In this document: positions 960 to 60,858 of the stretch, piece after piece
Layout of the letters: the number at the start of each line of letters is the position of its first letter
How positions within the stretch are numbered: the stretch's first letter is position 1
NCBI RefSeq assembly: GCF_014385435.1
Contig: NZ_JACSUD010000006.1
Location: 62,001-126,000, forward strand
Length of the DNA: 64,000 nucleotides
From: Alloprevotella sp. Lung230
Lineage (GTDB): Bacteria; Bacteroidota; Bacteroidia; Bacteroidales; Bacteroidaceae
Reading direction: 5' to 3'
Made by a program: the position numbers and the translations under genes
Notes under the pieces: model-generated
The model's database searches: none
What the model was told of the DNA's origin: nothing
What the model saw: the letters and a program-made list of their open reading frames with translations, nothing else

Positions 960-1381
960 CTTTTCATATATAGCCTTCTCAACCGCGAAATCAGCCACCA
1001 TCTCTCCACTTTAACTTGGATTTAACATTTCTGGGAGAGAGGGGTGCGTCTACCTCAGAGGTAGTTTTTTCCAGCTCTGAGGTAGTTGAATTTAGCTGGG
1101 AAGTAGAAAAATGGGCTTCCCTCGAAAGTTGGATGACGCGATTGTGAGGGTGCGTTTCCTCCTTTTTGTGCTCGCGCGCGTATATACTACACGATAGGCT
1201 GTGTTTTTTGCCTTCACTGCCTTCACCGATGTGGAGTATTGGTGAAGGGAGGTGAAGGGAGAATGTTTCTTTGCCTTCACCTTTAATCATCTCATAGTCA
1301 GCGGGCTGCAATAAGCAGTGAAGGCGTGAAGGATAAAAACAAGAACTATTGTAGGGACGCGCACGCGTGCGCGAGGAAATC
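960..1381 (-). repeat. Composite intergenic repeat, copy A
   Basis: Read on the minus strand, this copy aligns along its length with the copy at 29006-29420. It has a GC-rich alternating end (1357-1374), a palindromic core of GCCTTCAC/GTGAAGGC words (1205-1335), a TATATAC-GCGCGCGAG segment (near 1171-1188), three 13-bp near-palindromes starting at 1051, 1072 and 1093 (exactly 21 bp apart), and paired GTTAAA boxes near 1010-1030. Similarity to copy C may extend outward to about 1440 (GGGACG..CATCGG). It lies between two divergent genes. No coding frame is conserved between copies. Confidence 0.85.
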
Positions 1382-8280: not shown

Positions 8281-8727
8281 CCTCGCGCACGCACGCGTAT
8301 CTCTACAATAGTTACTGTTTTTTGCCTTCACACCTTCACCGCCCTACGCAACCCATTGATTGCAAGGGAATTGTAGGTGAAGGCAAAACCCAAGTTTGCC
8401 TTCACCGACTACCCACGTAGGTGAAGGCAGTGAAGGCAAAAAACACGACATATTGTGTAGTATATACGCGCGCGAGGGAAGCAGACTGTCCGGTCGATGC
8501 CGGCAAGCAACAGAGGGGAAGTCGCGGAATTTCCCTCAGAGGTAAACAAAACTATCTCTGAGGAAAATGAAACTACATCAGAGGTAAATGCAATTCCCTC
8601 TGAGGTAGAAAATCCGTTTTCCACACTCCGTCCCTCCCTCTCTGTCGGCCTCGCCGAAATGTTAAAGTCGTGTTAAACTCGGGAGCTTGTGGCTGAAATG
8701 GACATCGAGATGTCTATATATAAATGG
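8281..8727 (+). repeat. Composite intergenic repeat, copy B
   Basis: Same order of parts as the copy at 29006-29420. A GC-alternating end is followed by GCCTTCAC words (8321-8340), the inverted GTGAAGGC-AGTGAAGGC arm (8420-8438), and GTATATACGCGCGCGAG (8459-8475). Four near-palindromes then start at 8532, 8553, 8574 and 8595, an exact 21-bp period. Two GTTAAA boxes (about 8658-8675) and a tail GAGATGTCTATAT complete it. It sits directly after the fructan operon terminator. Confidence 0.87.
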
Positions 8728-26480: not shown

Positions 26481-26530
26481 AAAAAAGACAACTGCCCTCT
26501 TCGACTCGGCGTGAGGTCGGAGAGAGCAGT
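26481..26530 (-). terminator. Terminator of gyrB
   Basis: Minus strand 15-bp imperfect stem (26516-26530 with 26491-26505), then TGTC and six T. Confidence 0.72.
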
Positions 26531-26588
26531 GGTGAGAAAAAGGCCGTCCGGAGGACCGCACAAGATGACGCCCTTAGCCGTATCAGCA

Positions 26589-29005
<2,417 letters not shown>

Positions 29006-29420
29006 ATTTCCTCGCGCGCGCGTCCCTACAATAGTTCTTGTTTTTATCCTTCACGCCTTCACCACCAAAACAACCTTTTGACTATAAAGCACTTACAGGT
29101 GAAGGCAAAGAAACATTCTCCCTTCACCTGCCTTCACCAACACCTCACTTCGGTGAAGGCAGTGAAGGCAAAAAGACACGACCTATTGTGTAGTATATAC
29201 GCGCGCGAGAACAAACAAAAGGAGGCAACACGCGCCCACATGCCCCACTCCACCCGACTCAGGAAGCCCGCCTTTTCTACCTCCCAGCTAAATCCAACTA
29301 CCTCAGAGGTAGAAAAAACTATCTCTGAGGTAGCTGTTCCTCCTTCCCCGAAATGTTAAATCCAAGTTAAAGTAGGGTTGGAGTGGCTGATTTTGAGGCC
29401 GAGATGTCTATATCTAAATA
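29006..29420 (+). repeat. Composite intergenic repeat, copy C (reference copy)
   Basis: Left arm 29011-29063 and right arm 29152-29209 are imperfect inverted copies of each other. Each has, from outside in, CTCGCGCGCG, CTACA-AATAG, a T-run, and two CCTTCAC words. A second inverted pair of GGTGAAGG/CCTTCACC lies inside. Three 13-bp near-palindromes then start at 29278, 29299 and 29320 (21-bp period; the first is degenerate). Paired GTTAAA boxes 11 bp apart (about 29354-29370) and the tail GAGATGTCTATAT follow. The MITE-like element at 29418 begins where the tail ends. Confidence 0.88.
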
Positions 29421-59317: not shown

Positions 59318-60458
59318 CGTAGAGTCAACCAGCAAGTGCAAAATTACAATATTCTCTTGTAGAACTCTTTTTTGGGTGTTTCAAAATTAAGTTTCTGTCT
59401 GGGTCTATTATTGATTTTCTTCTGTATCATTGCAATCTTTTTGTCGGTGTAGTCATCAAAGTTTGCCTGCTTAGGTATATATTGTCTGATGAGTTTGTTC
59501 GTATTCTCAATAGCCCCTTTTTGCCATGAAGAATAGGGATCTGCAAAGTAAACCTTTGCGCCTAGATACTTTGTGATGAGTTTATGTGCAGCAAATTCAG
59601 GTCCATTGTCGGTGGTAATGGTTTTTATATGTTCTTTGTAAGGAAGGAGTAGTCTTCGCACCTGCTGCATAGCAAGTGGCTCCGACATCTTACCATGTGG
59701 TAATTTTGTCATAAACAGCATGTTCGTGGAACGTTCCACGATGGTGAGGATAGCATGACCGAAATGGTCTACGATTAAGTCCATCTCGTAGTCGCCAAAT
59801 CTCTTTCCATCAGCTTTTTCTGGGCGTTGGTGTATGCTGATTTTTCGGCTATAGGGAAACGTTTGTGCTTAGGTCTACGTCTGTATTTTAGCTTATGACG
59901 CGTATGTTGTGCCAATATTCCAGTAGCATCAGCATGTATGATGTTGTAGATGCTTTGATGTGAGACACTGACGCCTTCCTTCTTCAATACGCCCGATATT
60001 TGTCGTGGAGACCATTGTTCTTCTAGGATGAGTTGTTTGATTCTCCACACCAATTCTGGAGCAAGGGCTGCATTGCGTGTGGGACGCTTGCGACGCTCCA
60101 TCGCCTTATCGTGCGCCTTGAACCAAATGTACTTGCCCGACCGAGTACTGTTGCGTCTTAATTCACGAGAAAGCGTGGATTGACTGGTTCCCACGATACG
60201 TGCGATTTCTTTTCTTGGGCATTTTCTTTGTAGTAAGGCAAAGATTTGCGATCTTTGCTCTGAGGTTAGTTGTTTGTACATAGGCAATACAAAGATAATT
60301 AATCTCGGGGAGTCCTCCAAAAGGAGACTCCTTTTTTGTATTGCCGGTATCGCTCTTCGGGGCTGCACGCCCCGGCCGCGAGGCAAACCCGCGGTGTTTT
60401 TCATGGATTAGGACCTATGAAAAAACAAATGATTTGTTGCACTTCGATTTTGAAAGTA
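59318..60458 (-). mobile_element. IS30-family insertion sequence, full length
   Basis: A 1141-bp element. One end reads CGTAGAGTCAACC..AAGTGCAAAATT, the other (inward) TACTTTCAAAATCG-AAGTGCAACAAA, with AAGTGCAA shared as the core of the terminal repeats. It holds one transposase split by a frameshift. Upstream of the transposase are a GC-rich hairpin leader and a TATCTTTG -7 box about 10 bases before the start codon. Confidence 0.87.
59344..60281 (-). pseudogene. IS30-family transposase, frameshifted
   Basis: The N-terminal part (60281-59775, 168 residues) has two helix-turn-helix segments (SEQRSQIFALLQRKCPRKEIARIVG and the QWSPRQISGVLKKEGVSVSHQ block, given in part). The C-terminal part (to 59344) holds the DDE domain: Asp in DYEMDLIVDHFG, Asp in TTDNGPEF, Glu in KGAIENTNKLIRQYIPK. 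The frame changes at an A5-G run (59814-59819). One more A would restore a single frame, so it is probably a one-base loss; a programmed -1 shift is the alternative. Confidence 0.85.
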
Positions 60459-60478: not shown

Positions 60479-60503
60479 ACGAGAGAAGGTTGCCCCCATT
60501 TCT

Positions 60504-60858
60504 TCTCGCGCGTGCGCGTATCTCCTACAACAGCGTGGGGATTTTGCCTTCACACCTTCACCCAACGAGGTAAATCACAGAAAGACAGGAGGTTGCGGGT
60601 GAAGGCAGGACATAGATTTGCCTTCACCTCCTTCACGAATTTTGCCTTCACCGGCAACCCACTCATTGACAGATGGTTATAAATTCCGGTGAAGGCAGTG
60701 AAGGCAAAAAACGGGGTTTTACATGTAGTGATGCGCGCATACGCGCGCGAGAGAACGCGAGAGAATATAGAGAATAGGGATAGGAGCGCAGAAAATTTAC
60801 CTCAGAGATAAATGCAACTCCCTCAGAGGTAGAAAAAACTACCTCTGAGGGAGATTTG
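60504..60858 (+). repeat. Composite intergenic repeat, copy D (3' truncated)
   Basis: It has the GC-alternating ends (60506-60518 and 60733-60751), GCCTTCAC/GTGAAGGC palindromic core with an extra CCTTCACCTCCTTCAC block, and three near-palindromes starting at 60798, 60819 and 60840 (21-bp period). The GTTAAA boxes and tail are missing; the terminator of the next gene follows at once. Confidence 0.85.

Follow-up and report, generated by a model that had tools for sequence, protein, structure and literature searches.

The 64,000-nucleotide stretch of the Alloprevotella genome analysed here, referred to as the window, carries gyrB on the minus strand (26589-28607) and, at higher coordinates, the third of four copies of a composite non-coding repeat (Table 1). 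The GyrB protein shares 94% identity with its counterpart in Alloprevotella sp. OH1205_COT-284 (genome G432) and 93% with the one in Alloprevotella sp. oral taxon 473 F0040 (G430), which places the host in Alloprevotella, closest to oral species. An open reading frame at 26511-28706 (plus strand) is antisense to gyrB, and its matches reflect the conservation of gyrB only.

The initial annotation described the repeat as present in four copies, with the same parts in the same order, in intergenic gaps and in both orientations, and alignment confirmed this for every copy. The GTTAAA pair and tail, assigned there to three copies, were found in copies 1-3 (in copy 1 as the variant GAGAAGGCTATATAT) and are absent from copy 4. 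The palindrome array is likewise present, although it proved to be phased at 21 bp and confined to one side of the element. Adjoining copy 4, at 59775-60404 (minus strand), lies a gene for a 209-aa protein with a helix-turn-helix and a partial match to IS30-family transposases, apparently truncated.

Table 1. Coordinates of the repeat copies and their parts within the window.
Feature	Position	Strand	Basis or remark
Copy 1, whole composite	966-1378	-	Alignment, half-unit profile
Copy 1, half-units	left 1270-1375; right 1170-1235	-	Half-unit profile
Copy 1, palindromes and tail	1071-1085 and 1050-1064; tail 966-1027	-	Palindrome/tail scan
Copy 2, whole composite	8281-8727	+	Alignment
Copy 2, half-units	8283-8387 and 8396-8478		Half-unit profile
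Copy 2, array	8531-8608	+	Four palindromes at 8531, 8552, 8573 and 8594 (21-bp period)
Copy 2, tail	8660-8719	+	GTTAAA pair ... GAGATGTCTATAT
Copy 3, left half-unit	29008-29109	+	CG arm, CTACAATAG, T-run, CCTTCAC at 29048 and 29056, loop, GTGAAGG at 29099
Copy 3, right half-unit (inverted)	29121-29210	-	CCTTCAC at 29121 and 29131, GTGAAGG at 29153 and 29162, CTATTGTGTAG, CG arm
Copy 3, array	29298-29333	+	Palindromes 29298-29312 and 29319-29333, 21 bp apart
Copy 3, tail	29354-29413	+	GTTAAA pair to GAGATGTCTATAT; 59-60 bp, the length common to most tailed copies
Copy 4	60503-60853	+	Half-units 60503-60607 and 60641-60749; half-unit profile
Copy 4, palindromes	60797, 60818 and 60839	+	Tail-less subtype

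Size and anatomy of the family

Four copies turned out to be a considerable understatement. With a half-unit profile applied to the matching loci, a search of the kind that the initial annotation had suggested, at least 65 copies of this two-armed non-coding element were found in the 2.49 Mb genome, and further elements were recovered in relatives. The similarity between copies 3 and 1 reaches E=7e-99, BLAST with copy 3 as the query matched 112 stretches, spread over about 39 places of its own genome, and two word-pattern searches gave 31 and 82 matches versus 0 for a reversed-pattern control; the family similarity is therefore beyond chance, and it extends past low-complexity words, to which the initial annotation had considered that it might be confined. 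None of the element cores in 47 loci overlaps a called gene, and the family is intergenic.

The core, approximately 200-290 bp long, is a pair of inverted half-units of about 105 bp each. All 65 copies comprise one plus and one minus half-unit with their arms pointing outward, and the gap between the matched half-unit stretches ranges from 8 to 165 bp in 63 pairs. From the outside inward, a half-unit consists of a CG arm in which purines and pyrimidines alternate (CTCGCGCGCGTATAC and variants), then CTACAATAG, a T-run, the CCTTCAC words, a loop and the inverted words. The two-word segment reads CCTTCAC-n-CCTTCACC, and the loop is followed by GGTGAAGGC (the end of the half-unit can also be given as GGTGAAGG). 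With strict words the loop is exactly 35 bp in 31 of 31 matches, under a pattern that allowed 10-40 bp; with looser words it is 35 bp in 48 of 77, most of the others having 33-34 bp. At its centre is a conserved inner dyad, AA-N4-CTGAnAnTCAG-N4-TT. In columns 10-19 of the arm profile a near-strict alternation is kept while the bases themselves vary (G/A, C/T), and an alternating tract of at least 12 occurs in 77% of the arms versus 0.35% of random 45-mers from the window. The fold is strong (z about -10 as DNA and -8.2 as RNA), which follows from the two arms being inverted repeats and is not in itself a sign of RNA function.

Beyond one of the half-units, 63 of the 65 copies carry one to four palindromes CTACCTCnGAGGTAG, on a single side in 62 of those 63, with a period of 21 bp (42 bp where one unit is degenerate). 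A tail, GTTAAA-N5-GTTAAA ... GAGATGTCTATATATAAATAGRGG (also written GTTAAA..GTTAAA..GAGATGTCTATAT), is present in 28-29 copies, with 59 bp between its fixed points in most. The tail-less subtype (window 60504, L031, L033, L041, L043, L053, L054 and L060) has some shared sequence upstream of the left arm. Genes on the array side are of mixed orientation, 30 facing the element with their 3' end and 23 with their 5' end; the array and tail show no bias towards gene starts, which makes a promoter of the next gene an unlikely role for the tail. Palindrome arrays were observed in most of the 20 loci of the sibling G432, and not in the loci of G005, G033 and G430 that were read. Three further loci of the host genome (L035, L037 and L039, at C1:354395, C3:39127 and C3:99271) match the array and have no recognisable core; they may be remnants, or the array may be an independent module. 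In locus L240 of G430, about 100-250 bases inside the left half-unit, there is an apparent array phased at about 21 bp with a different unit (TCCGA..), a hint that other species carry phased arrays built from words of their own.

Thirty-two copies have their left arm turned towards a gene's 3' end, and in 16 of them the arm lies 1-35 bp behind the stop codon; these distances are approximate, the neighbouring genes having been delimited with a simple codon model. Among copies with both neighbours known, 11 of 25 are close behind a stop versus 5.1 expected, and only 6 of 10,000 simulations reach 11.

Copying, turnover and changing words

Three recent duplicate pairs, L046/L047 (391/429 identical positions), L049/L050 (451/507) and window copies 1/3 (344/426), show 81-91% identity across the whole composite, with unrelated flanks. 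The similarity drops abruptly, on the left near CCTCGCG... and on the right a little beyond the GATGTCTATATA tail. The copied unit is asymmetric in that it reaches across the array and tail, and its outermost ends share only about CCCTC/GAGGG. Across the family the copies diverge widely, with their spacing kept.

Comparison with G432 (a part of the host genome was set against 400 kb of G432 and 20 of its copies) points to mostly different positions in the two siblings. At locus L122 the array and core fill an intergenic region of about 400 bp, whereas the same gene pair in G432 (L400) is separated by 48 bp from stop to start; the difference may equally be a gain here or a loss there. At L051 the element lies 19 bp from a stop codon, and the 78%-identical G432 ortholog of the gene has none. 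In the 400 kb of G432, which hold 19 element clusters, there are about 12 orthologs of genes neighbouring host copies. Two of these (L248, L249) have an element at the same end, and the remaining ones have no element within 1.5 kb, a few of the matches being at the edge of the fetched stretch. For one of the 20 G432 copies, the adjoining gene also adjoins a host copy. Gene order around gyrB differs in the two named relatives closest to the host, and the site of copy 3 is not comparable there.

No target-site duplication was found at any offset in 29 tailed copies. Some IS families make no target duplication, and decay is another possible cause. None of the copies scanned includes a gene flanked by far-apart half-units, as an autonomous partner would, and in the loci examined no element was inserted into another repeat. 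The copies at contig ends (C15, C19, C25 and the start of C6) were considered as a long transposon and rejected, their shared 1.5 kb running towards apparent rRNA sequence; judging from ORF content, they probably lie downstream of rRNA operons. The near-identical contig-end copies L111, L109, L110 and L044, apparently in such positions, would have spread with the operons and not as separate insertions. Two other dispersed repeats were noticed in the host genome: one of about 150-195 bp, 80-83% identical between places (L109:3139-3333, also L035, L039, L041, L059 and L115), and one of about 110-430 bp (L044:744-1171, also L051, L062, L049, L057 and L119), which forms a tandem pair in L051.

The half-unit model has at least 65 matches in each of four other Alloprevotella genomes, with the words GCCTTCACTGCCTTCGC, GCTTCCACTGCTTCCAC and GCTTTCACAACCTTCAC and correspondingly changed inverted counterparts, and the same build with other words was recognised in five Alloprevotella genomes besides that of the host; of 57 other members of the genus, at least 40 gave no match. 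CCTTCAC of the host is thus replaced by GCCTTCACTGCCTTCGC in OH1205_COT-284, GCTTCCACTGCTTCCAC in G005, GCTTTCACAACCTTCAC in G033 and F0040, and GCTTCACAGCTTCACC in G026. From one species to the next, both arms and the inverted counterparts change their words jointly, and the inner dyad and the T-run persist. A multi-species model was also run against 393 genomes of the order, membership outside Alloprevotella resting on modest scores together with a visible build. Clear members were found in G157, from another family (words TCCTTCAC/TCCTACAC/TCTTACAC), where the TCCTACAC-type elements usually have a second two-armed element with TCTGCAAC words within about 0.1-0.6 kb (L297-L300), and in G363 (CCTTCACG words). 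A contig of an uncultured Prevotella (L369) has a weaker similar build with CTGCCAC words, and a Mediterranea contig (L345) possibly has one as well. Exact-word scans of bacterial and viral contig collections, from which records near the window may be absent, gave no matches, as is to be expected of species-specific words and, possibly, of such an omission.

Nature of the element

Of the three identities proposed in the initial annotation, i.e. a non-autonomous mobile element, a structured RNA and a chromosome-organising site, the first is best supported, by the abrupt ends of the copied unit, the empty orthologous site and the mostly differing positions between siblings. We consider it probable that the copies constitute one family of non-autonomous dispersed mobile elements (MITE/BIME-like) in Alloprevotella, within a broader class of such two-armed elements between genes in the Bacteroidales; this estimate concerns the mobile identity, and our confidence in the detailed mechanism falls somewhat short of even. 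In that mechanism a trans-acting DNA-binding or recombining protein would recognise the word repeats and the inner dyad of both half-units, pair the arms, and copy or move the composite to further intergenic sites, leaving no duplication and often placing it immediately after a stop codon. The words would drift with the specificity of the protein, which would explain why they are uniform inside one genome yet differ from species to species. Array and tail would be passengers or accessory binding sites of local subfamilies. We extend this, more tentatively still, to a non-autonomous class across Bacteroidales, in which the arms carry short word repeats flanking a conserved dyad (AA-N4-CTGAnnnTCAG-N4-TT). 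Its words may vary from species to species, and from one subfamily to another within a genome, along with a non-Y1 recombining protein of fast-changing DNA specificity.

The same features can be read differently. The copies might be sites maintained by the host, BIME-like supercoiling buffers or sites for topoisomerase or nucleoid proteins at gene 3' ends, whose spread is secondary. In this reading the arms would be prone to form Z-DNA and the core to form a cruciform. The arms keep their purine-pyrimidine alternation although their bases change, the palindromes are spaced exactly two helical turns apart on one side, and the left arm is often found just behind a stop codon; the wide divergence of copies with kept spacing also fits selection on a host function. 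However, the positions are mostly unconserved in sibling species, the majority of genus members surveyed have no match, and the genes on the array side show no common orientation, so that we regard host-maintained sites as unlikely, if worth keeping in mind. A structured RNA or 3'-UTR element (terminator, attenuator or mRNA stabiliser), at work once transcribed from the gene upstream, would suit the strong predicted RNA fold and the frequent position directly behind stops. Against it, no covariation was seen between potentially pairing loop positions, nor between the arms within copies (52 joint deviations versus 56.5 expected), the left and right word regions being independent. The main hairpin has no U-tract after it in either direction (on both strands a T-run precedes the stem and an A-run follows it), terminator-like sites inside the element are weak only, and Rfam matched only a tRNA in the window. 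As base pairs without covariation disfavour a structured RNA, we hold it to be improbable. By contrast, the joint change of words in both arms across species suggests a shared DNA-binding partner, since an RNA helix should also leave paired changes within copies; at the level of sequence, both arms look like candidate sites for one species-specific DNA-binding factor.

As to such a partner, the paired inverted units, intergenic position, species-specific sequence and missing target duplication recall REPINs, in which a Y1 (HUH) transposase (RAYT) mobilises paired REPs, and the host genome has one Y1_Tnp gene. Yet Y1_Tnp has no match in the element-rich G432, G033, G430, G005 and G363 and is present in element-poor relatives, and units of about 105 bp with 35-bp loops are unlike REPs of 20-40 bp. 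Y1 transposases do not track the elements, which speaks against RAYT/Y1 as a general partner and leaves a REPIN/RAYT system very improbable. A link to DUF3987/BT4734-like (VirE) genes was also rejected: neither PF13148 nor PF08800 was found in the host genome, PF13148 was not found in G432, G033, G430, G005, G026 or G157, and the copies of the gene in G363 have no element within several kb.

With its length within 50-1000 bp, its multi-copy, non-coding and intergenic character and its empty sites (L122 versus G432 L400, and L051), the family resembles MITEs in general. It resembles in particular those of P. gingivalis, another member of the Bacteroidales (BrickBuilt, MITE239 and MITE464/PgRS), which share internal phased repeats with it and, as regards the inverted half-units of its core, have comparable inverted ends. 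BrickBuilt, however, has GAGACC..GGTCTC, IS5-like ends and 23-nt tandem repeats (23-nt or 41-nt in the P. gingivalis MITEs, unlike the array unit described here), whereas our family has alternating CG arms, word repeats, an inner dyad and a 21-bp palindromic array outside the core, and no related IS was found for it. BrickBuilt and the related MITEs were accordingly discarded as its identity. The BIMEs/REPs of enterobacteria are likewise intergenic mosaics of modules, often close behind stops, with palindromic units in alternating orientation, but the present half-units are larger and fixed, with a 35-bp loop in most and with species-changing words, and no REP-like sequence tag was seen. A further mark of BIMEs/REPs is that they bind gyrase, IHF or Pol I. 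The spreading entity of REPINs is also a pair of inverted units whose sequence type varies by species; the family differs in its unit anatomy and lacks a Y1/RAYT association. RU-1/RU-2/RU-3 and ERIC of enterobacteria are intergenic inverted repeats of comparable build, about 100-200 bp long and lacking a known partner transposase, and are not known to have word repeats or a phased array of the present kind.

The initial annotation had allowed for a match to a catalogued repeat; none emerged from Rfam, the BrickBuilt comparison or literature text. The element words and the palindrome were not found in the full texts searched, a set outside which most subscription papers lie, and no description of such an element is apparent from titles and abstracts or from the full BrickBuilt paper. 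The family thus looks like small mobile DNA of a hitherto undescribed kind, and both the class and its enzyme stand a realistic chance of being new.

Little is known of small dispersed repeats in Bacteroidota, a phylum dominant in the mouth and gut. With at least 65 copies, turnover between sibling species and a frequent position immediately after stop codons, the present family shapes intergenic DNA and probably also the ends of genes. If its words track the specificity of a protein, they would offer a natural set of DNA sites paired with their binders, and a lead to a new mobilising enzyme.
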